Source: a virus. Taken from it: a DNA stretch of 24,604 nucleotides. Every line of letters begins with the position of its first letter. Position 1 is the stretch's first letter. Location: IMG/VR virus record IMGVR_UViG_3300027917_000171, positions 1 to 24,604 of that record, one strand, 5' to 3'. This document shows, one piece after another, positions 356 through 23,129 of this stretch. The notes below the pieces were generated by a model. It ran no database searches, was not told the origin of the DNA, and was given only the letters and a program-made list of their open reading frames with translations. The position numbers were made by a program, and so were the translations under genes.

Positions 356-868
356 ATGAATAAAGAACAAATTCGTAAAGCATTAGATCATTTCGAGAAT
401 GACGAATATACGGATGCAAAAGAAATTATCCAACAAGAGATTCGTCAATCAAGAGATGAATTTTTAGCTGGCAAACTAGAACTCGAAGCACAGAAAGAGG
501 TTTGTGAGATGTGTGGAAAATCACATTTGCTTCCTTTCTTGTTTGCAACACCTGACCAAAAGAAGAAAAAAGGTGGCGATGTATATCCTGGTGGATTTGT
601 CAAAACAGGACCTCATGCTATGAAAGAAGAAACAGAAGATTTTGAACTTACAGTATGTGATGAATGTAATGATTATCTCAATGAAAAATGGGAGAAGGAT
701 GTAAAAATTCAATCCACAGGCGAGCATGCAGGCAAATCAGTTGGACAAATAAAGAAAGAAATAGAAAATCTAAAAGGCAAACCAGGTAATAAAGAAAAAA
801 TGGGAGAACTTCTATTTGCTCTAAGATCCAAAACAGGATGGAAGAAAGGCGAAGGTGCAACAGACTAA
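356..868 (+). CDS. Prohead-core-like small protein with a four-Cys zinc motif
   Basis: 170 residues, preceded by GGAGG about 10 bases before the ATG. Residues 1-45 (IRKALDHFENDEYTDAKEII and onward) resemble the short helical proteins found beside the prohead protease in many T4-like phages, such as the gp67/gp68 position in T4. Residues 46-110 hold two Cys pairs, C50-x2-C53 and C101-x2-C104, spaced like a treble-clef zinc site. The tail is Lys-rich and ends with a short helix containing ALRSKTGWK. No nuclease HNH signature is obvious. It could be a head-core component fused to a zinc module; function beyond that is not known. The stop overlaps the next start (TAATG), so translation is probably coupled. 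Confidence 0.6.
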   Translation: MNKEQIRKALDHFENDEYTDAKEIIQQEIRQSRDEFLAGKLELEAQKEVCEMCGKSHLLPFLFATPDQKKKKGGDVYPGGFVKTGPHAMKEETEDFELTVCDECNDYLNEKWEKDVKIQSTGEHAGKSVGQIKKEIENLKGKPGNKEKMGELLFALRSKTGWKKGEGATD

Positions 869-1074
869 TGAAAAAACAACTTACAGAAAAATATCTGAAT
901 GAGATGGCTCCTAGAGGGACAGACATCAATAGAGCCAAAATGATGATATTGAATAAAATTGAATCTGTTTCCGATATTTTGATGAAAGAATTTAATGATC
1001 GACTTTTGGTGGCAAAGTTAGTTGATGCTGCCCTACAAGATATTACTAGAATGAGCTGGAGACAAAGAGTATGA
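868..1074 (+). CDS. Small protein with capsid-targeting-like leader
   Basis: 68 residues. The start at 868 is chosen because the ATG overlaps the previous stop (TAATG); an in-frame ATG at 838 lies inside the upstream gene. The N-terminus, MKKQLTEKYLNE followed by MAP, ends in L-N-E and resembles the short leaders cleaved by the T4 prohead protease. The remainder is helical and charged, ending in SWRQRV. Its stop overlaps the next gene by four bases (ATGA). It sits in the head operon just before the protease gene. The core function is unknown; an internal head protein is an inference from leader and context. Confidence 0.6.
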   Translation: MKKQLTEKYLNEMAPRGTDINRAKMMILNKIESVSDILMKEFNDRLLVAKLVDAALQDITRMSWRQRV

Positions 1075-1259
1075 ATTTGAGCAAATACTTAACAGAAAAA
1101 GCATTTGGAGACTTACCTGTTGATATTGAAAATGCTAAAACAGAATTGATACAATCACTAAAAGGCAAAGTCCTTGTTCGTGATCTATCTAAAAATGAAA
1201 TCAGTATTGCTACTGGTGGAAAATCTGTTAAAGTAAAAATATTAGGATACTCCAAATAA
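1071..1259 (+). CDS. Small protein with capsid-targeting-like leader
   Basis: 62 residues, translationally coupled by an ATGA overlap to the previous gene. It begins MNLSKYLTE followed by KAFG, almost the same leader as the gene at 22430 (MNLEKYLTE), although the bodies of the two proteins are unrelated. The L-T-E end fits the L/I-x-E rule of T4 gp21 cleavage. The body (about residues 25-62) looks like a small beta-rich fold with KGKVLVRDL and KSVKVKILGY strands. Function is unknown; packaging in the prohead is inferred. Confidence 0.6.
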   Translation: MNLSKYLTEKAFGDLPVDIENAKTELIQSLKGKVLVRDLSKNEISIATGGKSVKVKILGYSK

Positions 1260-1271
1260 AGAGGTAAAAAC

Positions 1272-1871
1272 ATGAAACTAATAACAGAAACTTCTTATGA
1301 TTTTGAATTGATTGAATCAAAATCAAAGGGTGTCAATATCGTAGGTATTTATAGTACCGCTGAACTCAAAAATAACAATAATAGAGTTTACAAAAAAGAC
1401 ATTCTTGAAAGAGAGATTGAAAGAGTACAAGAGAAAGTCAAAAATGGCACTCTTTGGGGTGAACTAGGTCATCCACCAAACCCTGAAGTCAACCCGGAAA
1501 GAATCGCTATTCTGACAACAGAACTTCACTGGAGAGGCAACGACCTTTATGGTAAATCTAAAGTTTTAGAAACACCTATGGGAGAGATTGCAAAGACATT
1601 AGTGAAGGAAGGCAAGATGGGAATTTCTTCTCGTGGTCTTGGTACAGTTTCAGAGGATGGTTATGTCAATGAAGATTTCAATTTGATTACTTGGGATATG
1701 GTAACAGACCCTTCTAATCATCCATCCTGGGTAAATGGTATATATGAAGATAGAGAATGGAATTTCAATAAAATAAAATCTGATCAAGAGAAAGAAGTTG
1801 AAGAAATTCTTGAAAGACTTCAAAAAATTCTAAGATGCCCTAAAAGCAGAATTGCAGAGATGATAAAATAA
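1272..1871 (+). CDS. Prohead core protease (T4 gp21-like, peptidase family S80)
   Basis: 199 residues, close to the 212 of T4 gp21, with a GAGG ribosome site. It is a serine protease that in T4 is packed in the prohead, cleaves scaffold, capsid and internal proteins after L/I-x-E, and digests itself. Visible family landmarks are the strand VNIVGIYSTAEL with NNRVY (residues 21-40), GELGHP with the probable catalytic His67, and GKMGISSRGLG with the probable nucleophile Ser119 or Ser120. The N-terminus MKLITE itself ends in I-T-E, a possible self-cleavage site. It is flanked on both sides by small genes whose leaders carry putative cleavage sites. The next gene starts directly after its stop. 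Confidence 0.92.
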   Translation: MKLITETSYDFELIESKSKGVNIVGIYSTAELKNNNNRVYKKDILEREIERVQEKVKNGTLWGELGHPPNPEVNPERIAILTTELHWRGNDLYGKSKVLETPMGEIAKTLVKEGKMGISSRGLGTVSEDGYVNEDFNLITWDMVTDPSNHPSWVNGIYEDREWNFNKIKSDQEKEVEEILERLQKILRCPKSRIAEMIK

Positions 1872-2282
1872 ATGAAACAAGATATAATTGATAAATATTT
1901 GGTTACAGAAGACGCAAGAAATCCTAAACGCGGAGATAAATTTGAATATAAAGGAAAGAAACTAACTGTAACAAGAATTGGCTCTGGATTAGGTCCCGAT
2001 AAATATATAACAGTACAATTTGAAAAAGAAAAGCATGCTAGAGAAATCAAAATGACAGACTTTTTCAAAGGTAATGAATTCAAATATATTTCTGAAGCAA
2101 GTGGAGCCGGTACATCATATGAATCTATGTGGAATTCATGGTGGAGCCGTGGTCTTTTTATCTACCTTAGAGATGACCAAGTATTATTTTCACATGCTTT
2201 TGATTTTCCAACAGGGCATCATATGACAGAAGAAGATAAACAAATAGCACGGGCAAGAGGCTATATTCTAATTGATTGGTAG
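1872..2282 (+). CDS. Unknown head-operon protein with leader-like N-terminus
   Basis: 136 residues; the ATG directly abuts the protease stop. The N-terminus MKQDIIDKYLVTE followed by DAR resembles the leaders of its neighbours but ends V-T-E, a weaker match to L/I-x-E. A second possible site, YISE followed by ASGAG, lies near residue 75. Residues 17-60 look like a small beta-barrel (RGDKFEYKGKKLTVTRIG). The C-terminal part is aromatic-rich (WNSWWSRGLFIYLRDD) and ends in RGYILIDW. No family was recognised. It is probably a virion or prohead protein by context only. Confidence 0.55.
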   Translation: MKQDIIDKYLVTEDARNPKRGDKFEYKGKKLTVTRIGSGLGPDKYITVQFEKEKHAREIKMTDFFKGNEFKYISEASGAGTSYESMWNSWWSRGLFIYLRDDQVLFSHAFDFPTGHHMTEEDKQIARARGYILIDW

Positions 2283-2293
2283 GAGAAGAAGAA

Positions 2294-2524
2294 ATGAAAA
2301 TATTAGAAAAAATCGAAAAATATTTATCGGAAGCCAAAGGTGATGAGTTTCATAAAGGCGATATAGTAAAATGGTATAATTCTGCTGGTGGTTTCGATGA
2401 AGGCGAAATTATAGGACATTCATGGTGTGGTTGGATGATAAAAATAACAAAAGGAGCTGGCAAAGAAAAATGTAAAGAGGCAGAAGATATCTGGATGGTG
2501 AAAAAAGGACCAGGACATAAGTAG
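2294..2524 (+). CDS. Small SH3-like protein with capsid-targeting-like leader
   Basis: 76 residues. The start at 2294 is preferred over the in-frame ATG at 2276 because TAGGAG lies just upstream and the resulting N-terminus, MKILEKIEKYLSE followed by AKG, matches the local leader pattern (L-S-E then A). The body, KGDIVKWYNSAGGFDEGEII and what follows, looks like a small SH3-type barrel; the C-terminus is Lys-rich. The 5' end of this gene follows closely on the stop of the preceding gene. Function is unknown; delivery into the head is inferred from the leader. Confidence 0.55.
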   Translation: MKILEKIEKYLSEAKGDEFHKGDIVKWYNSAGGFDEGEIIGHSWCGWMIKITKGAGKEKCKEAEDIWMVKKGPGHK

Positions 2525-2562
2525 AAGATAAACAAATGGCATACGGGCGAGAGGAGAAGAAG

Positions 2563-2820
2563 ATGGATTTATTACAGAGAATAGATGAAGCGGTCTCGGG
2601 AAAAGTAATGAGAAATATAGAATGGGAAAGATTGATGTCTGAATTTTTCCGTATGTATGATGATCTTCTTTGGATGTCAAAAGATAAAAAAAATACAAAA
2701 GCACAAATTGCTATGAGAAATGCCGAAAGTTTATTCAAAATTTTGAACACATTTTTAGAAAATTTTACAGGTATGGAAAAATTATATCTTGCGGCGGAAG
2801 AACAAAAACAAACAACATAA
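2563..2820 (+). CDS. Small helical protein with leader-like N-terminus
   Basis: 85 residues from ATG 2563, chosen over ATG 2536 because AGGAG lies six bases before 2563 and gives the N-terminus MDLLQRIDE followed by AVSG (I-D-E then A). The remainder is predicted mostly helical (RLMSEFFRMYDDLLW, FKILNTFLENF) with a Gln/Thr-rich end. It is the last gene before the terminator at 2845, so it closes the portal-protease operon. No family was recognised. Confidence 0.5.
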   Translation: MDLLQRIDEAVSGKVMRNIEWERLMSEFFRMYDDLLWMSKDKKNTKAQIAMRNAESLFKILNTFLENFTGMEKLYLAAEEQKQTT

Positions 2821-2968: not shown

Positions 2969-3406
2969 ATGTTGAGAGACAATATTCTCAATAAATATAG
3001 TTTTAGAACCGTAAATGGTATCATTTATTTTTATGATGCCGCAAGAATGAAATGGCTAAGTATTCAAAAAAGTTACCTTTCATTTGGAATAAACCATAAG
3101 AATATAAATTCTTCACGTTGGCTTGCAATTCAAGGCGTCATTTATTCAAACAATTTAGGTTTCTCAATGCCTGATAATGGCACGATTACTAGGGCAATAA
3201 CTCAATCAAAAGTAAATACTCAGTGTAATTTCAATATTTTTGAAGATAATTCGATAATAACAACGGTTTCACTTACAAACGAGACAGAAAAAATACATAC
3301 ATTAGACATTGATTACAGTATCAATTCACAATTGAGAGCATATTTGGAAATAATAACAAAGGCAGATTATCCTTTTATTGTTTTAGAATGTGCTTCAAGA
3401 ATTTAG
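2969..3406 (+). CDS. Virion surface protein, beta-rich, paralog of the next gene's C-terminal half
   Basis: 145 residues, GAGGT ribosome site. Nearly the whole protein aligns by eye with the C-terminal 135 residues of the next gene: GIIYFYDAARMKWLS against GILYAYDAFRSKWLS, then LSFG against LAFG, a shared Asn-rich section, LDIDYSI against TNIDYDF, LRAYLEI against LQAYLAT, and IVLECASR against TIIEIAWR. The domain is probably a beta-sandwich used in head fibres or decoration proteins. There is no N-terminal attachment region, so it may assemble on its larger neighbour. Function is inferred from paralogy and location before the scaffold and capsid genes. Confidence 0.6.
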   Translation: MLRDNILNKYSFRTVNGIIYFYDAARMKWLSIQKSYLSFGINHKNINSSRWLAIQGVIYSNNLGFSMPDNGTITRAITQSKVNTQCNFNIFEDNSIITTVSLTNETEKIHTLDIDYSINSQLRAYLEIITKADYPFIVLECASRI

Positions 3407-3421
3407 GAGGAAAATAAAAAA

Positions 3422-4351
3422 ATGGAAATGTGGAAAGTATATGTAAAAAGATCAGTACCAAGCGCATCATATCTAATTGAAGATTTAGGTATTGATATTC
3501 CGGCTACCGGATATGTGGAGCTTTCTAATCAATTCAGTTATTCAGAAATTGCAGATTCAGATGATTTGAGAGTTTCAGTTAGTGCAGGTGTTCTTATTTT
3601 AAATAATGGAATAGATGATTTTCCTGCACCATCCGGAGCTGCTTATTTAAAAATAGATAATATTTATCATTTAGAAGGTAATTATTATTCTAAACTCGAA
3701 TTACAAACTTCAGGCGAAGCACAAGTTCATTGGGATAATATAACTAATGCACCATATATTCCATCTGCTATTCCATCTGCTGCTAATACGCTGGATGATG
3801 CATATGATGAGGGTGGTCCAGGAGCTGGCCGTACAATCTATGTTGATTCCGGTTCAGTTCAGCTAACTGCATCTAATGGATATTCACCATTAGAACTAAC
3901 AGAATTATCTGCTTTACCTACTGTTGATCTAGCCGGTGGCCAATTGGCCGTGAAAGATGGTATTCTTTACGCCTATGATGCCTTTCGCTCAAAATGGCTA
4001 AGTACACAAAGAATGTTTCTTGCCTTCGGTAAAGCAGGTAACGCAAAAAATCAATACCTATATCATCTTGCAGGTCCATCGAATAATTCTGGTTACAGAC
4101 TTGCTAGAAACGCAACAGTTGTGTCTATTACAGCACAATTAGATTCCTCAGGTACCTGTGATATTCATATCAGAAGTAATGATTCAATCACAAACCTTAT
4201 TACTTTGAGTTTGACAGCACAACTTGGTGCTCAAGATACAAATATTGATTATGATTTTACAGCAGGAGATTACCTACAAGCATATCTTGCAACAACAGGT
4301 GCTCCTTCACAAGATCCATTGACAATCATTGAGATTGCTTGGAGAGAATAA
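3422..4351 (+). CDS. Probable head decoration or fibre protein
   Basis: 309 residues with an AGGAGG site. Residues 1-90 (VYVKRS, DIPATGYVELSNQFSYSEI) look like a small attachment domain seen in phage virion proteins. The middle contains NTLDDAYDEGGPGAGRTIYV, a motif I recognise as recurrent in marine and large-phage structural proteins. The C-terminal 135 residues duplicate the preceding gene. Codon use and A+T content resemble the neighbours. It is likely exposed on the capsid or neck, given its place directly before the scaffold and capsid genes. A tail fibre role is possible but less favoured by location. Confidence 0.6.
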   Translation: MEMWKVYVKRSVPSASYLIEDLGIDIPATGYVELSNQFSYSEIADSDDLRVSVSAGVLILNNGIDDFPAPSGAAYLKIDNIYHLEGNYYSKLELQTSGEAQVHWDNITNAPYIPSAIPSAANTLDDAYDEGGPGAGRTIYVDSGSVQLTASNGYSPLELTELSALPTVDLAGGQLAVKDGILYAYDAFRSKWLSTQRMFLAFGKAGNAKNQYLYHLAGPSNNSGYRLARNATVVSITAQLDSSGTCDIHIRSNDSITNLITLSLTAQLGAQDTNIDYDFTAGDYLQAYLATTGAPSQDPLTIIEIAWRE

Positions 4352-4949: not shown

Positions 4950-4957
4950 TATAAATA
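4950..4957 (+). promoter_or_regulatory. T4-type late promoter box before the scaffold gene
   Basis: TATAAATA lies 38 bases before the scaffold ATG in the 99-base gap. It forms one arm of an A+T palindrome; TATTTATA at 4960-4967 is the same box on the other strand, so hairpin formation is also possible. In T4 this box is read by the gp55 sigma factor. Confidence 0.6.
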
Positions 4958-4995: not shown

Positions 4996-5862
4996 ATGGA
5001 TAAGATTTTAGAGCTTTTGGGAATCAATAAGTTGGATGAAAGCACTCAAACTGAATTGAAAGAAAAGCTACAAGACATTATCGAAGTAAAGGCTAAAGAG
5101 CTATCTGAAACCTCATTGGAAGAACAAAAGACAAAAATTCTTGAGGAATATGAAGCAAAGTTTGAAGAATATAAAGATGATATCACATCTAAATTCTCAA
5201 ATTTTGTTGACAGTGTTCTTGAAGAAGAAATGACTATTCCTGAAGAGGTTATGGAATATGCTAAGAAAGGCCAATTGTATAATGACTTGATTGAGCAATT
5301 CAAAATTCGTTTAGGTGTCGACCAAGGCCTTCTGGACGAAGAAGTAAAATCACTTCTAAAAGAAGCAAAGGAAGAGATTGTAAAACTTCGTGGCGGCATG
5401 GATAAACAAATCGCTGAGAATTTAGAGGTACGCAAAGACGCACAAGAATTGGCAGCAACAGTTTATTTATATCAGAAATGTGAAGGTTTGACAGAAGCAC
5501 AAAGACAGCATGTTTTCACTGTTCTTGAAGGTATTTTTGATAAAGCTGAAATAGACAGAAAGTTCGATATTCTGAAGGAATCTGACAGATTCGAACCTGT
5601 TGCAGTTTCAAGTACCGAAAATCCTGACGATGCTGCAGAAAAAATCAGAAACAAGAACAAAAAGACTTCTGATCCGAAAAATAATGAAGATCAAGTCGAA
5701 GAGCAAAACAATGGTAATGGAAAGGCTGAAGTAGAGGACGAAGACGACGAGGACGAAGACGAGGACGAAAAAAAGAAAAAGAAAATGGAAGAGCAAAACA
5801 GTCCGTTCTCAGAGTATAAAAACAGATATCTTAAAGTTTTACAAGAAAACAAAATTGGTTAA
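4996..5862 (+). CDS. Prohead core scaffold protein (T4 gp22-like)
   Basis: 288 residues with an AAGGAGG ribosome site. It is long, helical and highly charged: Glu/Lys-rich coiled-coil segments over residues 15-75 and 95-150, then a conserved-looking section with LTEAQRQHVFTVLEG (matching the LTESQKEKVSALVEG pattern of T4 gp22). An acidic run of Asp/Glu near residues 245-258 is followed directly by a Lys run. In T4 the scaffold forms the prohead core and is degraded by gp21; several L/I-x-E triplets are present here, including KLDE near the start. It lies directly before the major capsid gene, as in T4. It is slightly longer than T4 gp22 because of the acidic-basic tail. Confidence 0.88.
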   Translation: MDKILELLGINKLDESTQTELKEKLQDIIEVKAKELSETSLEEQKTKILEEYEAKFEEYKDDITSKFSNFVDSVLEEEMTIPEEVMEYAKKGQLYNDLIEQFKIRLGVDQGLLDEEVKSLLKEAKEEIVKLRGGMDKQIAENLEVRKDAQELAATVYLYQKCEGLTEAQRQHVFTVLEGIFDKAEIDRKFDILKESDRFEPVAVSSTENPDDAAEKIRNKNKKTSDPKNNEDQVEEQNNGNGKAEVEDEDDEDEDEDEKKKKKMEEQNSPFSEYKNRYLKVLQENKIG

Positions 5863-5903: not shown

Positions 5904-7145
5904 ATGGACTTACAAGACCTTATGAAAAAATGGGAAGAAGTTTTGAACGAAGGTTCTGAAATCAGAAATAAGAATGTTCGTAAGTCAACAGCAATTATGC
6001 TAGAGAACGAACATAATTTCTTGATGGAAGCTTCTACATATGGATATCCCAATGACAGTTTTGGAACAAACGCTGGTTACGCAACAAGTGGTATGTTTCA
6101 CAAAATTGCAGTTCCTATGGTTAGAAGAACCTTCCCTGAATTGGTTGCCCACGATCTAGTTGGTGTTCAGCCAATGACAGGTCCCGTTGGATTGGCCTTC
6201 GCTCTAAGATTTAGAGCTGGTAATTCATACGGAAATTACGTCAATGCTGGCGATAATCCTGCAAATGATACAGAACTTGGTTACAATACAATTGAATCGG
6301 GATATTCTGGATCATATACAGTATCAGCCGCTGAAGCACTTGGTTCCGCAAGAGGAACAGGTGTTGGTAGTGACATTGGTTTGGGTATCGGAGACGGAAC
6401 CCATATCAGAGAAGTCAACATGACAGTTGAAAAAGCACAAATTGAGGCGAAAACCAGAAAGTTGAGAAGTAGATGGTCATTAGAAGTTGCTCAAGACCTA
6501 AAAGCAATGCACGGCTTGAATCTTGAAGAAGAAATGATGGACATTTTAGCGTATGAAATTACTGCTGAAATCGACCGTGAATTGATCGAAAAGATTGATA
6601 CCGTTGTAACAGCTGGTGGAGCAAACTACTCATGGACATGGTCATACGAAGCCGCTTCTGGTGATGGTGTTCCTGGTGGACGTTGGGAGATGGAAAGATA
6701 TAGAGAATTATATCACTTCATTCTAAGACGTGCACAAGCCATCGCAATCAATACAAGACGTGGTTCTGGTAACTGGATCGTAGGTGATCCTTACTCAGTT
6801 GCTATCTTCGAATCAATGTCAGCTTTTGCAATCGCTCCAGTTCCTGGTAATGTAAATACCGCAATGGTAGGCATTAGCAGAATCGGTAGTCTTGACGGAA
6901 GATTGACAGTGTATCGTGATACATTCCAACAGATAAATCAATTCATCGTTGGTTACAAAGGACCTTCGGAATATGATACGGGTGTTATTTACTTGCCTTA
7001 CATTCAATTGTTGGCATCCCGTGCAACATTCGAGAATTCTTTCCACCCAACAATTGGTTTGATGTCTCGTTACGGAATTCATGATCATTTGTTTGGATCA
7101 AAAAATTATTATCAGAAAGTTCGCTTAACGGATTTACCTCTATAA
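5904..7145 (+). CDS. Major capsid protein (T4 gp23-like)
   Basis: 413 residues with an ATAGGAGG site, shorter than T4 gp23 (521). HK97-type fold is expected. Landmarks shared with T4 gp23 are MVRRTFPELVAHDLVGVQPM followed by TGPVGLAFALRFR (T4: MVRRAIPNLIAFDICGVQPM then SPTG). The N-terminal peptide ends FLME followed by AST, which fits gp21 cleavage after Glu42; T4 cuts after an LTE before its mature end. Later parts contain the LEEEMMDILAYEITAEIDRE helix and the RYGIHDHLFGSKNYYQKVR end typical of the family. It is closed by the terminator at 7164. Confidence 0.95.
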   Translation: MDLQDLMKKWEEVLNEGSEIRNKNVRKSTAIMLENEHNFLMEASTYGYPNDSFGTNAGYATSGMFHKIAVPMVRRTFPELVAHDLVGVQPMTGPVGLAFALRFRAGNSYGNYVNAGDNPANDTELGYNTIESGYSGSYTVSAAEALGSARGTGVGSDIGLGIGDGTHIREVNMTVEKAQIEAKTRKLRSRWSLEVAQDLKAMHGLNLEEEMMDILAYEITAEIDRELIEKIDTVVTAGGANYSWTWSYEAASGDGVPGGRWEMERYRELYHFILRRAQAIAINTRRGSGNWIVGDPYSVAIFESMSAFAIAPVPGNVNTAMVGISRIGSLDGRLTVYRDTFQQINQFIVGYKGPSEYDTGVIYLPYIQLLASRATFENSFHPTIGLMSRYGIHDHLFGSKNYYQKVRLTDLPL

Positions 7146-7227: not shown

Positions 7228-8787
7228 CTAGTTAGTCAATGAAGTACCATCCAACCATGACCAGTCCTCTTCAAATGCAGTATCAATATCAGTTAGAATA
7301 CCCCAAACATCTCCTTCCTCTTTTTCCATAAACTGATAATTTTCATCTAAAAGTTTCATTTCAAGAACATAACATCCCCAAAGAAGACCGCAAACTAAAT
7401 CATCATGACTATCTTTACCAACAAACTTACCATTTTCTTCAATAAATGATGCCAGCTCTTTTATAGTTTTTTCATCTATAAGTTTCAAGGAACCGTCCTC
7501 AATTAGTTTCTTCATTAGAAGGGCTGCTTTAGGTTTTGTACCTTTGATTTCTCCACCAGTCGATCTAATACCTAATGATTTTTCTTTTGAACCTGAATTT
7601 ACAAGATTAGAATTTTCCAAATCCCACCACAATCTTGAAACAACCACTGAACCTTCGCCGTTGTTTTCACACATAATCCAACCATTATTGTAAAAAATAC
7701 TAAGTCTATTGATTATATCTGCGAAATCATAAGCATCTGTCATATTATCTTGAAAAACAGCAACTTGTTCTAATTGAATTGGTTTCATTGATACAAGTTT
7801 TAGAATTTGAATTGTAGAAAAGTTTTCACCTGTACCTTTTGCGGGATCGACACCTAGAATATAAACAGCTCCTTCTTTTGGTTTTTCCCATACTCTCAAT
7901 CTATTGTTTAGTTCAAAAAACTGAGGTGGTTCATCTTGTGATAAAAGAATTTCAAGGACGGTGGGTTCTATCAATGTGTTTACAGAACCTATAAAGTCAA
8001 CGGCAAACTCTTGTGCAAATTGTCTCGGACCTAAATTCTTTCTTTGTTCCTCTGCCCAGTTTTCATCTCTACCAGGAACAACTTCCCAGGATACTTTTGT
8101 TGTTTTAAACGTATTCTTGCCTGTTGTTGCATCAACCCATAAACGATGAAATATATTGAACATACCGTTAGGTGTAGATATGATAACAATTTTCGATTTT
8201 TTTGATGCAGAAATGGTAGGATAGTTAGCTGACCAGAAGTCTTCTGCTTGATTACCAGGTACAAAAGCGAACTCGTCACAAATTAGAAGATTCATTGATT
8301 CGCCACGAAAGGCATCTTCTGAAGTGGCTGAAATTACTATTTTAGTACCATTATCAAATATAACATATGTTTTTGAATAGTCTGTAACACCAGGTTTCAA
8401 CCAAACTGGTAGACCTTCATATGTCTTTTTGATTCTTGAAAGAATCATTTTTGCAGTTTTTTCTTTATTTGAAACAATACCTATAGATTTGTCTTTATGA
8501 AACATGGCATACCAAAGAACATATGCCGAAACTATTGTTGTCTTTCCAGACTGCCTACTGCACAAACCTATATTGAATCTATGTTTTTCGAACTTTCTTA
8601 GTAAATCCCACTGATAATCGAATGGTTCAAAATATATCTCACCTTCATCTGGATTCACAATCTTGACATATTTGATAAAATACTCACAACTTTCCGAACA
8701 CCTTTTCAATTCATCTATTTCGTTTCCGGTATATTCGAATTCAGCGTTCGGTCTTTTTACAGCAGTATCATCATATTTAATTGGCAT
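7228..8787 (-). CDS. Terminase large subunit (T4 gp17-like)
   Basis: 519 residues; an ATPase-nuclease motor that packages DNA through the portal. Walker A is SRQSGKTT (residues 77-84, T4-like), Walker B is NLLICDE (166-172), and the coupling motif is STPNG (204-208). The C-terminal RNase H-like nuclease has its first Asp in LGVDPAKG (Asp314), a Glu in CENNGEG (Glu374) and HDD at 461-463. Length is below the 610 of T4 gp17 but all motifs are present, so it should be active. The ribosome site GGAGG lies in the stem of the hairpin at 8794-8823. It is on the opposite strand from the capsid genes and separated from the small subunit by three non-packaging genes. Confidence 0.96.
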   Translation of the reverse strand: MPIKYDDTAVKRPNAEFEYTGNEIDELKRCSESCEYFIKYVKIVNPDEGEIYFEPFDYQWDLLRKFEKHRFNIGLCSRQSGKTTIVSAYVLWYAMFHKDKSIGIVSNKEKTAKMILSRIKKTYEGLPVWLKPGVTDYSKTYVIFDNGTKIVISATSEDAFRGESMNLLICDEFAFVPGNQAEDFWSANYPTISASKKSKIVIISTPNGMFNIFHRLWVDATTGKNTFKTTKVSWEVVPGRDENWAEEQRKNLGPRQFAQEFAVDFIGSVNTLIEPTVLEILLSQDEPPQFFELNNRLRVWEKPKEGAVYILGVDPAKGTGENFSTIQILKLVSMKPIQLEQVAVFQDNMTDAYDFADIINRLSIFYNNGWIMCENNGEGSVVVSRLWWDLENSNLVNSGSKEKSLGIRSTGGEIKGTKPKAALLMKKLIEDGSLKLIDEKTIKELASFIEENGKFVGKDSHDDLVCGLLWGCYVLEMKLLDENYQFMEKEEGDVWGILTDIDTAFEEDWSWLDGTSLTN

Positions 8788-8789
8788 GC

Positions 8790-8823
8790 AAAAAAATACC
8801 TCCCATAACTCTCGGAGGTATTT
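8790..8823 (-). terminator. Terminator-like hairpin that includes the large terminase ribosome site
   Basis: On the minus strand, AAATACCTCC pairs perfectly over 10 bases with GGAGGTATTT around a 10-base loop and is followed by a T run, then GC and the ATG at 8787. It can end the SpoVR transcript, and its 3' arm is the Shine-Dalgarno of the terminase gene. Confidence 0.8.
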
Positions 8824-8826
8824 ATG
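8819..8826 (-). promoter_or_regulatory. Possible late promoter box for the large terminase
   Basis: CATAAATA on the minus strand, one mismatch from TATAAATA. A start about six bases downstream would fall in the hairpin loop, giving an RNA that lacks the 5' arm and leaves the ribosome site free. Predicted from position and one-mismatch match only. Confidence 0.45.
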
Positions 8827-8844
8827 AAAAAAGAATAAAAAAAA

Positions 8845-10443
8845 TTAGAAAATCAGACCATTTAGACACATTCTCATATGATTTTTACTAATCGAATGTA
8901 ATAATGTTGAACCAGGATGTGATTGTTCTTCAACATCCTCGATCTTTTCATGTCCAATAGCCTCGGCCGTCGCTGTAATTTTCATTCTTTGTTTATTTAC
9001 AATCGTTTCAAGGATACAATCTCTTCCCCAAAGATCATAAATATGTCCCATAGTTTTTATTGCATACTCATAAGCTAAATCTGCACCTGCCCATCTATGA
9101 ATAAGGTGAAGTTTACCAGCACCCTCATAGTTTATATCTTCTATTTCGACTTGAGGAATATGGCTGTGAGCAAAACTTGAAACAATCAAATCTCTAACCT
9201 CTTTTGCTTCGTGTTTAGTTCTTACAATTTCATAATGGCTAGGTGTTTCTCTTTGGACAAAGATGTACATATTTAATTCGTCAACAAGTTCTGGTGTCAG
9301 AAAATCTTGCATAAAAAACCAATCTTGATAAGATGATAAAGTCTGAAACATCTTTTCTCTACCTTTACCGTCTTTTGTATCCCATTCTTCTTTCTGTTTC
9401 AGATTTGTACAATCATCATATTCTCTTCCATGTCTTCCTTTATCCCACCTTTCAACAATATTTTCCCAAACTTTACATCCTATCAAATATGGATTCATAG
9501 AAAGAGCATGTTTTGCCTTCACAAGAGAATTTGAATAGTTATACTCTGCATGTTCAGTATTGTTGATAAGACCTTCTTTGTAAAGTCTTGAAACTAAAAT
9601 TTGATGCCAATATGTTGCAAAGCCCTCATTCATATATTTCGTTTTGATCTGCGGCCAAAAATACTGACCTTCAAGTCTAAGTATTTCAAGAATATCTCTC
9701 TGCCAATCTTCAAGAATGGTAGAGTGATCAATTATATAACGTAAAAGATCACCACAAGGCTCAATAGGTGTCTTCTGTTTTATTCCTCTCCATAATTTCT
9801 GATTATATCTATTGATATCCATTTTCAATTCTTCTTCTGATTTTTCATGAAAATCTTTGAATTGAGAATCACTAATATTATGTTCTTTCTGTTTTCTCAT
9901 TTCAAAGACACGCTGTTTCTTGATTTCTTCTTTTTCAGTATCAAAAGGAGAAGAATGAAATTGAAGGGCATGCCCAGCATCAATAATTCTTTCAACTTCG
10001 TCAAGGCCATAATTCTTTTCATACTCACTGAACCTTTTTGCTGCTGTGTCAAGAACCTGAATAATATCTTTCTTTGTTTTCATGAAATACTTATTCATTG
10101 TAAAGAAAGAAACGTGACCAATTACATGAGCCATAACAAGACATTGAACACCAAGAGTATTTGAATTCATCAAATATGCTCTTGACGGGTCTGAGTTTAT
10201 AACGACTTCATATGGCAATCCGTCATAAATCTGCTCATTTATCGTTCTAATTCTTTCATAGTCACGTCCAAACTTCCAGTTTGAGATGTTTCCAGGGATT
10301 CTATATGCCATAATTTCAAACATCTTTTGATCTGGAATAATATCCCATTCTATAGGGCAGAATTTCAGACCATATTCCTCTGCAATTTTGTTTAGAGCAT
10401 CTTCAATTTTGATCAATCTTTTTAGATTATTAGGTGTTGTCAT
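8845..10443 (-). CDS. SpoVR / YcgB family protein
   Basis: 532 residues, slightly longer than E. coli YcgB (510). The match runs the whole length: WKFGRDYERI, PYEVVINSDPSRAYLM (YcgB: AYEIVINSNPCIAYLM), LVMAHVIGHVSFF with His106 and His110, GLDEVERIIDAGHAL, then DWQRDILEILR, and MNEGFATYWH (271-280) with Glu273 and His280. These His/Glu sites look like a metal-binding or hydrolase-like centre, but the biochemical activity is unsettled. In Bacillus, SpoVR affects spore cortex formation; in enterobacteria ycgB goes with yeaGH in stress regulons. The ATG starts four bases after the stop of the DUF444 gene, so the two are translationally coupled. No inactivating lesion is seen. The call is family-level; its phage role is unknown. 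Confidence 0.93.
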   Translation of the reverse strand: MTTPNNLKRLIKIEDALNKIAEEYGLKFCPIEWDIIPDQKMFEIMAYRIPGNISNWKFGRDYERIRTINEQIYDGLPYEVVINSDPSRAYLMNSNTLGVQCLVMAHVIGHVSFFTMNKYFMKTKKDIIQVLDTAAKRFSEYEKNYGLDEVERIIDAGHALQFHSSPFDTEKEEIKKQRVFEMRKQKEHNISDSQFKDFHEKSEEELKMDINRYNQKLWRGIKQKTPIEPCGDLLRYIIDHSTILEDWQRDILEILRLEGQYFWPQIKTKYMNEGFATYWHQILVSRLYKEGLINNTEHAEYNYSNSLVKAKHALSMNPYLIGCKVWENIVERWDKGRHGREYDDCTNLKQKEEWDTKDGKGREKMFQTLSSYQDWFFMQDFLTPELVDELNMYIFVQRETPSHYEIVRTKHEAKEVRDLIVSSFAHSHIPQVEIEDINYEGAGKLHLIHRWAGADLAYEYAIKTMGHIYDLWGRDCILETIVNKQRMKITATAEAIGHEKIEDVEEQSHPGSTLLHSISKNHMRMCLNGLIF

Positions 10444-10447
10444 TTTT

Positions 10448-11755
10448 TTATCCTTTCTTGTTTTTCTCGAATAGCATATGTTTCAATGCTGGAAAAACAT
10501 GCTCTCTTGATTTTATTACAGATAAAAGAAATCGTTTTTCTTCATTTTTGAAGAATTCTGTACCAGCATCTGCCGTTCTATCAAATGACCATTTACTTTT
10601 GATTTTATCCATTAGACTTCCTGATTGAATACCCCAAGCAGAATCCATTTGAATCTCAACATATGATAACATATTGACATTCTTTTGTAACATTTCATTT
10701 ATTCTACCAACCGTTATTTCTGGATCCCAATCTTCACCATCTGAAATATAAACACAATAGACATTCCATTCTGCCACTGGATACTCAGTATCAATTATGT
10801 AATTGGCTTTTTCGAAAGCTGTACTACATTTTGTTCCGCCTGATTCGCCAGTATGAAAAAACGTATCTTCATCCACAACTTGGGCTTCTGTTGTGTGGGT
10901 TATAAATTTCAGTTCAACATTATCATATACTTTCTTCAAGAATTCGACAAGCCAAAATAACATTGAACGAGCAAGGTATTTTTTATCAATTGTCATTGAA
11001 CCAGAAACATCCATCATAGAAATTACAACGGCTTGTGACTGAATTTCCATATCAGGTTCAATCTGTTTATATCGTAAATCATCATCCTCAATATTGATTG
11101 TTGGATCAATTGATTGATCGACTTCACCATTTTGAACCAATTCAATAGCATCATTCAAATCTGCTTTAGACTGGATCAATGCTTTTCTTGCCGTATCTTC
11201 GTCACAACCAGTTTCCTCTATGATTTCTATTTCATAAACAACCATTCTTTTTACAGCTTCAAGTAATGTTCTTTTCTTATGAAGTCTGGGTAAAATTCCT
11301 TTCTTGGTAATTGTTTCGAATTTCCAACCTTTAGGAACTAATTGGTGGGCTCTTGTCTTTTCTTCAATCCATGGCAAACCTAAATCGTCAAACATTATCT
11401 TGATTAGATAATCAATATCAACTTCCGCTTCAATATAATCATGACCCTTTTTATCTCCTGGTTTGTTTGGGTCTTTGCCTTCTTTTTCTTCTCTGCCTAT
11501 TACATCTCCAGGCTGACCTTCACCTTGACCTACGCCACCGGCAGCACCGTCATTCTGACCGTGAACAAATCTATAATCTTTTAGACCTCTAACAGGAACT
11601 TTTACTTTACGGCCTCTTTTCTTAGTGATAATAGATTCATCTGCTATAACATCACGCACATTTTTTCTAATTGCATCGTCAATCTTTTCATGATGTCTTT
11701 CTGCATCTTTTCTACCCTTTTCACTAAGGTCCCAATCATCATGGTGTACGATCAT
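10448..11755 (-). CDS. DUF444 / YeaH-YhbH family von Willebrand A protein with UBA-like insert
   Basis: 435 residues from the ATG at 11755, chosen because AAGGAG precedes it and the N-terminus (DDWDLSEKGRKDAERHHEKI) matches the Bacillus YhbH start; an upstream ATG at 11809 lies in a hairpin. Landmarks: a Gly-rich linker at 66-104, EAEVDIDYLIKIMFDDLGLP, KKRTLLEAVKR, then a VWA domain with MIDAS motif DVSGSM (249-254), SGGTKCS with Thr308, and SDGED (338-342). Between KKRTLL and the VWA domain is an extra stretch of about 45 residues absent from YhbH as I recall it; it looks like a UBA/EF-Ts N-terminal helical module (175-208). In bacteria this protein is encoded with PrkA and probably works with it. 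All MIDAS residues are intact. Confidence 0.92.
   Translation of the reverse strand: MIVHHDDWDLSEKGRKDAERHHEKIDDAIRKNVRDVIADESIITKKRGRKVKVPVRGLKDYRFVHGQNDGAAGGVGQGEGQPGDVIGREEKEGKDPNKPGDKKGHDYIEAEVDIDYLIKIMFDDLGLPWIEEKTRAHQLVPKGWKFETITKKGILPRLHKKRTLLEAVKRMVVYEIEIIEETGCDEDTARKALIQSKADLNDAIELVQNGEVDQSIDPTINIEDDDLRYKQIEPDMEIQSQAVVISMMDVSGSMTIDKKYLARSMLFWLVEFLKKVYDNVELKFITHTTEAQVVDEDTFFHTGESGGTKCSTAFEKANYIIDTEYPVAEWNVYCVYISDGEDWDPEITVGRINEMLQKNVNMLSYVEIQMDSAWGIQSGSLMDKIKSKWSFDRTADAGTEFFKNEEKRFLLSVIKSREHVFPALKHMLFEKNKKG
11126..11233 (-). other. UBA / EF-Ts-N-like module inside the DUF444 protein
   Basis: Residues 175-210 of the DUF444 product follow the pattern E-x-TG-x7-KAL-x5-DL-x2-AIE, as in the three-helix UBA and EF-Ts N-terminal domains. 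Seen as EETGCDEDTARKALIQSKA, then DLNDAIELV. Confidence 0.55.
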
Positions 11756-11770
11756 TTTACTTCTCCTTTC

Positions 11771-11809
11771 TAAAAAATAATGCCCTGCCCTACAATGAGG
11801 ACAGGGCAT
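11771..11809 (-). terminator. Terminator-like hairpin between prkA and DUF444 gene
   Basis: On the minus strand ATGCCCTG pairs with CAGGGCAT and is followed by TATTTTTTA. It lies 25-50 bases downstream of the prkA stop and upstream of the ribosome site of the DUF444 gene, so it probably reduces but need not abolish downstream expression. Confidence 0.8.
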
Positions 11810-11820
11810 CTATGAAGGTA

Positions 11821-11842
11821 AAACGTAATACGGTTTACGTTT
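11821..11842 (-). repeat. Inverted repeat overlapping the prkA stop codon
   Basis: AAACGTAA and TTACGTTT, separated by six bases, form an A+T-rich hairpin that includes the TAA of prkA. It may aid RNA 3' end formation or stability, or weakly reinforce the next hairpin. Confidence 0.4.
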
Positions 11843-13835
11843 TTCGTAAGATTTCTCCTACGAAGGCTAATTGAACATTAGCACATGAAGTACAATAACC
11901 TTTCTCCAAAAGGGTTTTGAAGGCTCGGTCACGATTTCGTTTAGCCTTTGGATTAGTATTGGTACTAGAAGCGATGGACAAATTCACTACGTTTTTCAGA
12001 TCACCCATTAGTTTCTTTTCAATCGCCTCTCGTAATGGGGCATAAGAATCAAACTTGAATGTTTCGCCTCGTTCAAGAGCGGCTGCCTTGTGAACAAAGA
12101 TACCATTTCTAAATTCATCTTTTGAATTCTCAGGCACGCCTATAAGCTCTTCAAGAGAGCGCATCAATTCTTCATTCGGATCACTGTATTCACCAGTGAT
12201 ATCATCTTTGATTTTCTCTTTTTTACAAAATGAGCTTACATTCTCCATGTATCTGCTGAATAGTTCATTTGCTTGATCTTCATAGGCATACAAGAAAGCC
12301 ATATTTACGTCTTTCTTGGCGACTTCTTTATATTCAGAAGCTACAGAATGTTTTTCACCAGTCAAAAGACCCGTATAGGTTTTGATATCTTCCTCTTTCA
12401 AACCTACATGGTGTTCAAAGTTATTTCTGATTGCACGAATCAAGTCAATAGGATTGATACAACCAGTATATTTCTTATCGTCTTTATCTTCACACTCACC
12501 TTTTTCTTCTTTGATACCCAAAGAAATATTCATGGCATTGATGATAAAACGAGGACTGATTCCTGTCATTCCTTCGCCTTGCGCTCGGCCGCGCTCACGC
12601 ATGGCCTTTACATCAATCTCATTTTTCTTGAATTCGTCAGTTACTTCACCATTGTAAAGTTTCATTTTCTGGATGAGATTTGAAACTTTTGTATCAGGAA
12701 CAAGCCTTGACAATACTGCAAATTCGGCTGCAACTTTCAATGCCCATGGTGCTATGTGAACATTTCGAAAATCAGATTCACGAATCATTTTCTCATAAAT
12801 CTTTATTTCATCATCCACTTTTAGGTTCCACGGTACAGTAACCTTGTACATACGGTCATGGAGAGCTTCATTCTTTTTCTCTGCTTTGAAAGTATCATAC
12901 TCAGTTTGGTTAGTATGGCTCAAAATCAATTCATCAACATACATCTGAGGAAAACCAGGTGACTTGATCAATTGCTCTTGAGCAGCAGATATCAAAACAT
13001 AATGGAATTTGATATCAGCCTTCAATATTTCTATATATTCGATCATACCACGATTAGCAACTTGAAGTTCACCGTCAAACTGATATGCTCTCGGATCAGT
13101 TTCACCATACCGAGCCAATTTACTCATATTGACACGTCCAATCAATTCAGTAACATCTTGTGATTTTGGATCACTAGGTTGAAACGTACCGATACCAAGA
13201 CGGCTTTGTTCTGATAGCTTGATCTGTTCAACAGGAATCTCATCCCAAGAGACAATTCCCTTAGAATCTGTAAAATTTTCAGCTATCATTTGACGACAAA
13301 CTGGGCATAGAAAACCTTCGATTTTGACACCAAGTTTTTCTTCCCAGAACGATCTATTTTCTTCTGGAATGAGATGTAACGGTTCCTCATGAACTGGACA
13401 ACCTTTTATTGCAAAGATTGGTGTATCATCTCTTTCAAGTCCACGTTTGACAAGAGCGGCAATTGTTGATTTACCAGAAGAAACGGGGCCCATCATGAGA
13501 AGAATTCTCTTTCCTGTTTCCGTACGTCTGGCTGACGCTTTTAGATATCTCATCAAATCATGAATTGCATGAAGTGTTCCGAAAATTTTACCATCAAAGA
13601 ATTTGTATGAGACAAGGTCTTCATATCCTTGAAGCTTTTCGGAAGGGTCAACTTCTGCCGTACCATATTTCATGATCATATTATATATACGGCCTGGAGC
13701 AAAAGTTGAAATTGAAGGGTTTTCTTGAACTTTCTGAAGATAATCAAGGACCGTTCCTTCCCAGGATTCAAATCCCTGACATTCAGAACGCTGCTGAAGG
13801 ATAATTTCTCGGAAATCTTGTTCAATCATTTTCAT
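11835..13835 (-). CDS. PrkA / YeaG family AAA+ protein (serine kinase or protease family)
   Basis: 666 residues from ATG 13835, chosen for AAAGGAG five bases upstream. It matches PrkA end to end and resembles the Bacillus form more than E. coli YeaG: WEGTVLDYLQKVQENP, RILLMMGPVSSGKST (Walker A, about 116-124), AIKGCPVHEEPLHLIP, GIGTFQPSDPKSQD, DPRAYQFDGEL, ANRGMIEY, HTNQTEYDTF, KKNEALHDRM, VPWNLKVDDEIKIYEKM and ESDFRNVHIAPWALKVAAEF. A CPVC pair at 177-180 could bind zinc with nearby Cys/His. The C-terminal PrkA kinase-like region is present to the end. Members have been described as Ser kinases and, in Bacillus, as an ATP-dependent protease; activity here is not decided by sequence. It has its own sigma70-type promoter and lies directly downstream of the small terminase gene. 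Confidence 0.95.
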   Translation of the reverse strand: MKMIEQDFREIILQQRSECQGFESWEGTVLDYLQKVQENPSISTFAPGRIYNMIMKYGTAEVDPSEKLQGYEDLVSYKFFDGKIFGTLHAIHDLMRYLKASARRTETGKRILLMMGPVSSGKSTIAALVKRGLERDDTPIFAIKGCPVHEEPLHLIPEENRSFWEEKLGVKIEGFLCPVCRQMIAENFTDSKGIVSWDEIPVEQIKLSEQSRLGIGTFQPSDPKSQDVTELIGRVNMSKLARYGETDPRAYQFDGELQVANRGMIEYIEILKADIKFHYVLISAAQEQLIKSPGFPQMYVDELILSHTNQTEYDTFKAEKKNEALHDRMYKVTVPWNLKVDDEIKIYEKMIRESDFRNVHIAPWALKVAAEFAVLSRLVPDTKVSNLIQKMKLYNGEVTDEFKKNEIDVKAMRERGRAQGEGMTGISPRFIINAMNISLGIKEEKGECEDKDDKKYTGCINPIDLIRAIRNNFEHHVGLKEEDIKTYTGLLTGEKHSVASEYKEVAKKDVNMAFLYAYEDQANELFSRYMENVSSFCKKEKIKDDITGEYSDPNEELMRSLEELIGVPENSKDEFRNGIFVHKAAALERGETFKFDSYAPLREAIEKKLMGDLKNVVNLSIASSTNTNPKAKRNRDRAFKTLLEKGYCTSCANVQLAFVGEILRKT

Positions 13836-13862
13836 TTGGGCTCCTTTCATTAGGTTACAGTC

Positions 13863-13891: not shown

Positions 13892-13895
13892 CGCT

Positions 13896-16512: not shown

Positions 16513-16896
16513 ATGAAACTAAAAAATTTTTTGACTGAAGAAAAAGAAAACAAAGTACAAGATGAGATTATAAAGTTCTTTATGAGTAATCCAAAACCTG
16601 AAGACAAACAAGTTCATGCTCTTGCAAATAAATTAGGTATTGATGAGCATGAATTTGAGGATCACATTTATTCTTTACTTGGATCCATTTTAGGTGCAGG
16701 TAAATCTAAAGAGAAAAAATTCGAAGAAGCTATGGCAGATAAAAAACAACTAAAAATGGGTATAGAAGTCGAAATGGAACATACGTCAAATCCTATTTTA
16801 GCTAAACGTATTGCTCTTGATCATTTAGCAGAGATTCCTGATTACTATACACGATTAGACAAAATGGAAAGTGAAGCTGGAGTAAAACATCACTAA
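16513..16896 (+). CDS. DUF5661-like small protein with capsid-targeting-like leader
   Basis: 127 residues from ATG 16513, five bases after the gp14 stop; a longer in-frame reading from 16348 overlaps gp14 and is not used. The N-terminus MKLKNFLTE followed by EKE is very close in style to the T4 internal-protein leader. The C-terminal half, KMGIEVEMEHTSNP, IALDHLAEIPDYYTRLDKME, carries the EHT ... A ... DHLxExPDYYxxLxxME pattern of DUF5661 proteins of phages and bacteria. That family has no firmly known function. The stop overlaps the next start (TAATG). Confidence 0.7.
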   Translation: MKLKNFLTEEKENKVQDEIIKFFMSNPKPEDKQVHALANKLGIDEHEFEDHIYSLLGSILGAGKSKEKKFEEAMADKKQLKMGIEVEMEHTSNPILAKRIALDHLAEIPDYYTRLDKMESEAGVKHH

Positions 16897-17153
16897 TGAG
16901 ATTCAAAAATTTCATAAATGAAGAAGCTATATCGGATAAAGTACGAAAAGAACAAGAGAAGACTTATGCTAGAGACATAAAGAAGGCGAAAGTATCTTTA
17001 TCTAAAATACATAAAGTAGACCCAAAGTTCTTAGAATTTGCCTACTTTCAGGAATATAAAGTAGGAAATAAGAAATTCGGAGATTATTTATTCTTCAACA
17101 TAGAAGATCAATCACATCCGAATTATGGTTCTTCTGTTGGATATCAATTATGA
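16896..17153 (+). CDS. Small protein with capsid-targeting-like leader
   Basis: 85 residues, coupled to both neighbours (TAATG at its start, ATGA at its end). It begins MRFKNFINE followed by EAIS, a close match to the T4 leader MKTYQEFIAE-A (I-x-E then A or E). The centre is basic and helical (RKEQEKTYARDIKKAK), the C-terminus mixed with FGDYLFFNIEDQ. No family was recognised. Confidence 0.6.
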   Translation: MRFKNFINEEAISDKVRKEQEKTYARDIKKAKVSLSKIHKVDPKFLEFAYFQEYKVGNKKFGDYLFFNIEDQSHPNYGSSVGYQL

Positions 17154-18710: not shown

Positions 18711-19445
18711 ATGGGAAATTTTAACCCTAATGAAGACAAAATACAAGAGGCTTATGAAAAGGCGATTGCTGAAAAATTGATACCATATGATGGTAAACAT
18801 ATTCCTCATTCGTCTTCAATAAGTCATATAAAAGGCATTTACGGTAATACATACAGTATTGTTCAAAGTCCGAGCACTCAAAGCTGGTATGTTACCGGTA
18901 AAGTTGGAAACGAATGGGTTCCTGTAACACCTGGTTTTCCTGACAAAGAAAGTGCAGTCAAGTTCAAAAATTGGCTTGATGCGGCTGGAAAAGATCAGCA
19001 ACAAATGGTTGGTACTATTGATGGTGGTGAAAGACTGAGAGAGGAAAAGGGATTCTTTATAAAGGCAATCAAACTGAATAATAAAAAAGTATCTATGTAT
19101 AGACAAGAGAAAAAATTGACTAGCAAAGTCGATCTTTACATAGATGATAAAAAAGTTGGTGAATATCCTGGCGAAAAAGCAGCTATGAAAGCCGCAGAAG
19201 AGAAAGTAAATGAAGATTCTAGTATCTATGGTGTTGCAAATGCAAAACCAGAAGAAAAAGTAGAAGAAAGTACAGGTAGTTATTTACATGGTCTTTTTGA
19301 ACGGCTTTTAGAAGAATTGGATAAAATAACATTAGGGAAAGGAATGGTTCCACCTAAAACAATTATTTTATTGAAAAAAGAAACAGAAAAACTTTATAAG
19401 TTATGGCAAAAAGAATTGAAAGGCAGTGGTCTTATAGGCTGGTAA
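18711..19445 (+). CDS. Unknown protein before the tube-fold gene
   Basis: 244 residues, GGAGG site seven bases before the ATG. Residues 38-95 look like a small beta-plus-helix module (YGNTYSIVQSPSTQSWYVTG, ESAVKFKNWLDAAGK). A second similar module may follow at 110-165 (FFIKAIKLNNKKVSMYRQ, KKVGEYPGEKAAMKAAEEKV), suggesting an internal duplication. The C-terminus is a long helix pair (YLHGLFERLLEELDKI, IILLKKETEKLYKLWQKEL). No family was recognised. Its position suggests a tail or neck accessory protein. Confidence 0.5.
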   Translation: MGNFNPNEDKIQEAYEKAIAEKLIPYDGKHIPHSSSISHIKGIYGNTYSIVQSPSTQSWYVTGKVGNEWVPVTPGFPDKESAVKFKNWLDAAGKDQQQMVGTIDGGERLREEKGFFIKAIKLNNKKVSMYRQEKKLTSKVDLYIDDKKVGEYPGEKAAMKAAEEKVNEDSSIYGVANAKPEEKVEESTGSYLHGLFERLLEELDKITLGKGMVPPKTIILLKKETEKLYKLWQKELKGSGLIGW

Positions 19446-22429: not shown

Positions 22430-22642
22430 ATGAATTTAGAAAAGTATCTTACTGAACAAAAATATCATAGTTGGCAAAGTGGTGTTGTCTGGAAAATTAC
22501 AGATGTTGGAGATTATCTTGAAGAAATGGCTTCTGAAGCAAAGAAAGCAAAATTTACTTCAGAACTAAAAGATGCCTTATCTTCATTCAAGACATTTCAA
22601 AAGGCTTACATGACTTTAGCTAAAAAGCTAGATTCTGTATAA
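22430..22642 (+). CDS. Small protein with capsid-targeting-like leader
   Basis: 70 residues; the ATG follows the tube stop by one base, so expression is coupled. It begins MNLEKYLTE followed by QKY, almost identical in its first nine residues to the gene at 1071 although the rest is unrelated (helical: EEMASEAKKAKFTSELKDAL, FQKAYMTLAKKL). It is far from the head operon, so the shared leader is best explained by function. Confidence 0.6.
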   Translation: MNLEKYLTEQKYHSWQSGVVWKITDVGDYLEEMASEAKKAKFTSELKDALSSFKTFQKAYMTLAKKLDSV

Positions 22643-22655: not shown

Positions 22656-23129
22656 ATGGGAATTGTAGAAAAACTAGACAGATTTTTATTTGAAGCTGAA
22701 AAAGATAAGAAATGGGTTTATGGAACAAAAGATAATAAATGGCATCTAGTTGGACCCGAAGATAGAGATTATAAACAAGGAATATCTCAGGATGAATTCA
22801 AAAAAATTGGAAAAGAAAAAGCCAAAAAGAAATATCTCTCTCCAGGATTCGTAAAAGAAGGTTTTGTTGTAGCAAAGAAAAGAGAGAAACAAAAACGAAT
22901 TCCAGACGATCCAAAAACCATAAAGAAATATGAAGACGATGGATGGACAGTTCTGAAAGAAGCAAATATGGATGTTTTCAAAAAACACCAAGAGAAAATA
23001 GCAAAAGATACACTGAAAATGACAGCACCTATGGTTGCTGTTATGGGTGGAATGACAAAGAAAGAGGCTATAGATTTCCTAAAATCAATTGGATATACAG
23101 ACACGCAAATCAAGAAACTAAGTAAATAG
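22656..23129 (+). CDS. Lys-rich protein with capsid-targeting-like leader
   Basis: 157 residues with a GAGGT site. The leader MGIVEKLDRFLFE is followed by AEK (L-F-E then A). The body is strongly basic (KEKAKKKYLSPG, KKREKQKRIPDD) with a tryptophan-containing module (KKWVYGTKDNKWHLVG) and ends in a helical hairpin (KKEAIDFLKSIGYTDTQIKK). Basic character would suit an internal head protein that contacts DNA, like T4 internal proteins. No family was recognised. Confidence 0.55.
   Translation: MGIVEKLDRFLFEAEKDKKWVYGTKDNKWHLVGPEDRDYKQGISQDEFKKIGKEKAKKKYLSPGFVKEGFVVAKKREKQKRIPDDPKTIKKYEDDGWTVLKEANMDVFKKHQEKIAKDTLKMTAPMVAVMGGMTKKEAIDFLKSIGYTDTQIKKLSK

Follow-up and report, generated by a model that had tools for sequence, protein, structure and literature searches.

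Leader genes around the prohead protease and along the window

The window, i.e., the whole stretch of DNA analysed here (24,604 nucleotides), is the entire IMG/VR record IMGVR_UViG_3300027917_000171, a 24.6 kb fragment. Judged by its genes, it is a segment of a T4-superfamily myovirus from an uncultured lineage; prohead protease, scaffold, major capsid protein and large terminase are encoded, with tail sheath, sheath stabiliser and baseplate hub genes downstream. The protease shares 40–48% identity with those of named phages and the capsid protein about 35%, and no isolate near the window was found, the named-phage identities for these two proteins peaking at approximately 35–48%; relatives of higher identity are nearly all environmental contigs. 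The sole MAG match, in a Thermoplasmata bin, is probably mis-binned. At least ten genes of the window, mostly small, start with a short N-terminal leader ending in [LI]-x-E. The features are as follows, with residues numbered back from the terminal Glu (P1) and a slash marking the end of the leader:

868..1074, plus strand: 68-aa protein, leader MKKQLTEKYLNE/M, type 2 variant
1071..1259, plus strand: 62-aa protein, leader MNLSKYLTE/K, type 1, profile score 17.8
1272..1871, plus strand: prohead protease, Peptidase_S77, gp21 family (PF03420, E=1.7e-27; phrog_207), proposed processing enzyme
1872..2282, plus strand: 136-aa protein, leader MKQDIIDKYLVTE/D, with a second [LI]xE junction
2294..2524, plus strand: 76-aa protein, leader MKILEKIEKYLSE/A, type 2, profile score 13.9
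2563..2820, plus strand: 85-aa protein, leader MDLLQRIDE/A, type 2 without aromatic P4, weak
4950..4957, plus strand: T4-type late promoter TATAAATA, 46 bases upstream of the scaffold gene
4996..5862, plus strand: T4_CASP-like scaffold (PF25623, E=4.3e-7)
5904..7145, plus strand: major capsid protein Gp23 (PF07068, E=1.4e-90)
7228-8787, minus strand: large terminase
14384 (minus strand), 14417 (plus strand) and 19958 (plus strand): further TATAAATA late promoters
16513..16896, plus strand: 127-aa protein, leader MKLKNFLTE/E, of a family with several different leaders
16896..17153, plus strand: 85-aa protein, leader MRFKNFINE/E; the G009 homolog has MRLKQYIKE
18711..19445, plus strand: 244-aa protein, type 3 leader DKIQEAYEKAIAE/K
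22430..22642, plus strand: 70-aa protein, leader MNLEKYLTE/Q, profile score 20.4
22656..23129, plus strand: 157-aa protein, leader MGIVEKLDRFLFE/A; the L116 body homolog has the type 3 leader NDKINEAYEKMFE

The initial annotation had described six leaders between 868 and 2820, and all six are present at these genes. It had regarded the leader at 1872 as the weaker one, which indeed deviates from the pattern by one extra residue; however, the weakest of the six is that at 2563, where P4 lacks an aromatic residue (compare MSILDRIDEHLNE at G001 112322). The leader at 868 is likewise off-pattern, with Thr at P7, and its start is ambiguous due to another in-frame ATG at 838; all three score weakly or do not reach the threshold of the profile. 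The N-terminus of the protease, MKLITE/T, is kept in P-SSM2 and HTVC008M and is close to MELITE of T4 Alt. Leader genes flank the protease, as had been proposed, but they also occur beyond the head operon, at 16513, 16896, 18711, 22430 and 22656. Homologs of the bodies of 868, 1071, 2294, 2563 and 22430 were absent from the fetched loci.

The protein at 1872 carries, besides its leader, a second [LI]xE junction (YISE/ASGAG, approximately residue 75) preceding a conserved C-terminal domain. In most of seven homologs the C-terminal domain starts right after an [LI]xE-like junction, with a stretch of about 13 to 75 residues ahead of it, and the N-terminal domain recurs in L130 behind a type 1 leader. 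In the AlphaFold model, which is of modest confidence, leader and linker are the low-confidence parts flanking folded domains. Some further candidates were not retained: 15509 fits the type 3 pattern and has Gln instead of Glu at the expected site, 8845 matches the type 2 pattern and is SpoVR, and 3422 and 14462 pass a loose motif and fail the profile.

The T4-type sequence TATAAATA lies 40–47 bases upstream of the scaffold, terminase and sheath genes in the window or in its relative G001, which suggests that late transcription is probably T4-like. An exact copy before the protease operon is absent from the window and present in G001, and exact late promoters could not be assigned to every leader operon.

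Enrichment and residue pattern of the leaders

The motif [YF][LI]xE was detected within the first 20 residues of 8 of the 35 window genes as compared to 0.6 expected from internal stretches, and none of 500 shuffles gave more than 4. The broader motif put forward by the initial annotation was enriched as well (19 of 35 genes, 5.0 expected). With G001 and G002 as the sole training genomes, a nine-position profile matched 7 genes of the window as compared to 0.22 expected. As the window is a fragment, the genome-wide enrichment anticipated in the initial annotation was assessed in relatives, using explicit patterns for three leader types and genes called by a simple script blind to leaders, so that some starts may be wrong. 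In G001 (161.6 kb), 38 of 249 genes carry a leader as compared to 1.3 expected, and leader genes were similarly in excess in G002 (17, 0.7 expected), G007 (18, 2.1 expected), G008 (14, 1.3 expected) and G009 (13, 0.8 expected); in the window the same patterns gave 10 matches, two of which are not claimed as leaders, with 0.1 expected. By contrast, seven named T4-superfamily genomes yielded just 2–7 matches each, with expected values in brackets: T4 6 (1.5), P-SSM2 7 (1.5), Melnitz 4 (0.7), S-PM2 4 (0.7), HTVC008M 3 (1.2), KVP40 2 (1.8) and ACP17 2 (1.1). In the lineage of the window, the tag thus sits on far more genes, enzymes among them, than in the T4-like genomes used for comparison. A looser motif applied to T4 picked up the known protease substrates IPII, IPIII, Alt, gp22, gp24, gp68 and gp21. 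Leader genes are moreover clustered, with 15 adjacent pairs in G001 as compared to 4.5 expected (p=0.0005). Two radical-SAM-like proteins of G004 (MKLTLFLTEQCSRKCTYCDIG), in which the motif abuts a cysteine cluster, are likely false positives of the profile. A degenerate DNA scan of IMG/VR for MRLKRYLTE returned 9 stretches and was too strict for gauging spread.

In the profile, P7 (F/L/I), P4 (Y/F), P3 (L/I) and P1 (E) are conserved, while P6, P5 and P2 are freer. The capsid-targeting sequence (CTS) of T4 is a short N-terminal leader of about 10–19 aa ending in [LI]-x-E, and in the IPIII leader MKTYQEFIAE residues 4 and 7 govern targeting and residues 8 and 10 processing (PMC9026906). Counted from the Glu, these residues are P7, P4, P3 and P1, thus the four positions critical by mutagenesis in T4 are the ones conserved here, in agreement with the likeness to T4 internal-protein leaders first pointed out from the window. 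In held-out genomes, N-terminal LxE sites were enriched over internal ones in aromatic residues at P4 (odds ratio 3.5, p=2e-12) and in hydrophobic residues at P7 (odds ratio 2.0, p=4e-6), with no enrichment at P5 or P6. The P4/P7 signal was absent in the pooled named phages, which is to be expected if leaders account for few of the LxE sites in those genomes. The helical moment of the leaders was 0.588 as compared to 0.355 for shuffled sequences.

Furthermore, the inferred maturation site of Gp23 encoded in the window, HNFLME/ASTYG, matches the leader motif [YF]-[LI]-x-E. Most capsid proteins of the group have HN[FWYS]L[MQVT]E/[AT] where T4 gp23 has FLTE/A (alignment A1); the T4 FLTE ends at residue 65, in accordance with the reported gp23 propeptide length of 65 residues (PMC5694885). 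This shared motif suggests that the leaders use the phage's own capsid cleavage motif.

Bodies behind the leaders and alternative readings

We consider it very probable that the leaders are T4-type capsid-targeting sequences and that the bodies behind them are cut free, kept in the head and probably injected. The small leader proteins might instead be parts of the prohead core, comparable to T4 gp67 and gp68, which are destroyed and expelled by the protease. This would be in line with the genes at 868–2820 adjoining the protease, the position of gp67 and gp68 in T4, with the size of many leader proteins of just 60–85 aa, and with the second conserved internal junction of 1872. However, [LI]xE sites are not enriched in leader bodies (157 as compared to 153 expected, a ratio of 1.03; other small proteins 1.23), unlike in the scaffolds, five of which, tested as a set, showed a twofold enrichment (70 as compared to 34 expected), as expected for a protein degraded by the protease. 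[VM]xE was at 0.80 of expectation in leader bodies and at 1.22 in other small proteins, while LxD and LxQ were not reduced in leader bodies. Thus, the leader bodies look shielded from the protease and the scaffold looks made for cutting, although internal sites are avoided to a modest degree and structure composition could account for part of this. Moreover, outside the window, many of the group's tagged proteins can be recognised as enzymes, 200–480 aa in length. Taken together, a role as core parts appears unlikely for the leader proteins, while remaining the best of the alternatives.

The tagged enzymes comprise a tRNA nucleotidyltransferase (G007 34268; PF01743, E=2e-30; phrog_2244), a Zeta/PNK-like kinase (G007 22854), a HAD phosphatase (G002 82088 and L046, under the Pfam cut-off) and a carbon-nitrogen hydrolase of the nitrilase type (G002 17863); RimK-like ATP-grasp proteins have a clear leader in Melnitz and a weak one in G001. 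An RNA-repair kit carried in the virion is possible but speculative. Most likely, the tagged genes represent a greatly expanded repertoire of internal proteins that includes enzymes. The largest tagged family (alignment A2) was modelled with a pLDDT of 84; a Foldseek search gave no credible match in the PDB, and strong structural matches were obtained to predicted jumbo-phage proteins. Its R..S..E-like appearance had suggested an ADP-ribosyltransferase, an identity that neither the PDB profile search nor Foldseek supported.

Alternatively, the leader could serve another target, such as a membrane, the host RNA polymerase or docking to tail or baseplate, and merely resemble a capsid-targeting sequence. 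Short amphipathic helices have many uses, and some leader genes lie amid tail genes, with 22430 and 22656 coming after the sheath gene. Nevertheless, Glu at P1 and L/I at P3 are what the protease family encoded here recognises for cleavage, and the capsid maturation site has the same signature, which a plain docking helix would not need; we therefore regard such a target as very improbable.

Common leaders on unrelated bodies, as claimed for the head operon, were also found in the wider set: the bodies of 197 leader proteins fall into 136 families, 93 of which are singletons, and at least three leader types are present. Among homologous bodies, the leader type can be swapped or the leader can be missing. 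Members of the 16513 family (DUF5661, to which the relative L033:11616-12095 belongs) have the leaders MKLKNFLTE, MKLRNFLRE, MSENKFIKYLLE or MDTISKINNYLNE, and those of the G001 105880 family either MNFEKYLTE or the type 3 leader DKIQEAYNKMLE. Within one genome, nucleotide identity between leaders is 65–79% and falls to approximately 30–36% immediately upstream and downstream, while synonymous codons differ at 15–40% of identical leader residues. Because synonymous codons vary and nucleotide identity drops to background outside the leader, the leader is, as read from these comparisons, conserved as a protein. Chance or a common ancestry of the N-termini by recent gene duplication, without a targeting role, could account for the paralogs making up part of the arrays and for the codons shared above random by the leaders of the G007 and G009 arrays, but it is already contradicted by the number of body families, by single bodies with different leader types and by an enrichment that persists in genomes outside training, and its probability appears negligible.

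Proposed role and comparison with known systems

What the sequence as such shows is that the leader exists, that it is enriched and constrained at particular positions, that it is swapped between bodies and that it matches the capsid site. Core binding, cleavage, presence in the virion and injection are what we infer beyond it. We propose that the leader forms an N-terminal amphipathic helix, with hydrophobic or aromatic residues at P7 and P4, L/I at P3 and Glu at P1, which would bind to the core of the prohead while the head is being assembled. Cutting after the leader Glu, the S77 protease, a gp21 homolog, would then release the body, which would remain in the head beside the DNA and probably enter the host along with it. 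The predictions that the initial annotation had made at the level of sequence all held, and its interpretation of these proteins as packaged in the head is supported at that level.

A further-reaching view, which we judge to be evenly poised, is that the heads are pre-loaded with exchangeable effectors, up to approximately 40 tagged proteins per genome, that are delivered before phage expression. If so, the cargo would include the PNK-like kinase, the HAD phosphatase, the CCA-adding enzyme and the multi-copy family without structure match, and new cargo could be recruited just by acquiring a nine-residue tag. A tag readable from sequence would single out, among hypothetical phage genes, those whose products can be tested for a role at the very start of infection. 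T4 IP1-3 each inhibit a type IV restriction enzyme of their own (PMC12373910), and for this reason candidates for anti-defence factors can be drawn directly from the larger tagged set. In addition, the tags may help to load foreign proteins into phage heads.

The jumbo-phage proteins matched by the alignment A2 family, distant relatives by fold, form in Agrobacterium phage Atu_ph07 a tandem array of ten genes, gp053-gp062, each starting with M[RK]WxxL[TNI]E; an S77 protease is encoded there as well. Virion mass spectrometry of this phage, the experiment that comes nearest to the present case, detected 29 proteins from the 46-gene block CDS 31-76 (PMC6102473); these data would back the block holding the array as a whole rather than individual genes. 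As in the lineage described here, tandem proteins of homologous fold share a leader and accompany an S77 protease; in Atu_ph07 the array lies within a block rich in virion proteins. Contrarily, Atu_ph07 is a jumbo phage of 490 kb with a different leader sequence lacking an aromatic P4, and in the accessible part of PMC6102473 the leader array is given no capsid-targeting interpretation. In phiKZ and SPN3US, inner head proteins, including ejection proteins, have N-terminal propeptides that the prohead protease cuts after Glu; however, most of these propeptides in SPN3US exceed 100 residues, and its protease has diverged far (PMC5694885).

The initial annotation had spoken of an undescribed set of proteins. 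This holds for the proteins themselves, and no account of the lineage or of an expansion of this size was found in the open-access literature, but the principle of a leader as the only shared part has long been known from T-even phages. Discovery of internal-protein genes by a common packaging leader is established there, and at least 10 such genes have been reported for the T-even group (PMC12373910). T4 Alt, a virion ADP-ribosyltransferase with the leader MELITE, represents an enzyme packaged and injected behind a LITE leader, whereas the alignment A2 cargo has no sequence or PDB-fold match to ADP-ribosyltransferases or other solved structures. The closest parallel is offered by T4 IPI, IPII and IPIII, which have a leader of approximately 10 residues ending in [LI]-x-E with the same critical positions, unrelated bodies and a gp21-type protease encoded in the genome. 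While T4 has three internal proteins and Alt, the lineage has tens of such genes per genome, organised in arrays and with at least three leader types, some of them encoding enzymes.

Leader types and neighbouring protein families

KIQEAYxKxLE constitutes a third type of the short N-terminal leaders proposed as capsid-targeting sequences; it is found in the protein encoded at 18711-19445 and also in the fetched loci L007, L008, L013 and L173. The motif hardly ever occurs in protein interiors, and it is present in a sister group, where leaders of types 1 and 2 are few. A C-terminal segment is common to the neighbouring proteins 2969-3406 (IYFYDAARMKWLSIQ) and 3422-4351 (LYAYDAFRSKWLSTQ), for which Pfam gave no match. 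In the cultured jumbo phage Atu_ph07, homologous-fold proteins are encoded in tandem (gp053-gp063, L243:14485-25593), and a Zeta/PNK-like kinase is fused to the array member gp053.

Insert in the prohead protease of relatives

The prohead protease of two relative contigs, G007 and G008, contains an in-frame insert with intein-like ends (first residues CIFGDNEIL, last NFYVRN..SF.TGN). The insert sits at the motif GELGHP, which is presumed to be the active site.

Proteases with the insert
G007:C1:198796-200517, intein-like ends
G008:C1:107292-108965, intein-like ends

Late promoters and the operon adjoining the terminase gene

The T4-type late promoter TATAAATA was detected 42-94 bases upstream of late genes in the window, two copies forming a divergent pair.

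Late promoters TATAAATA
4950
14384, minus strand, divergent pair
14417, plus strand, divergent pair
19958

A minus-strand operon (7228-14342) adjoins the terminase gene and encodes SpoVR, DUF444 and PrkA kinase.

Operon genes
8845, minus strand, SpoVR (PF04293, E=5e-101)
10448, minus strand, DUF444 (E=2e-92)
11835, minus strand, PrkA kinase (PF08298, E=2e-112)

The PrkA-like gene is kept by many relatives (family of 43), and the three genes together are a trio of the bacterial yeaG-yeaH-ycgB type in a phage operon.
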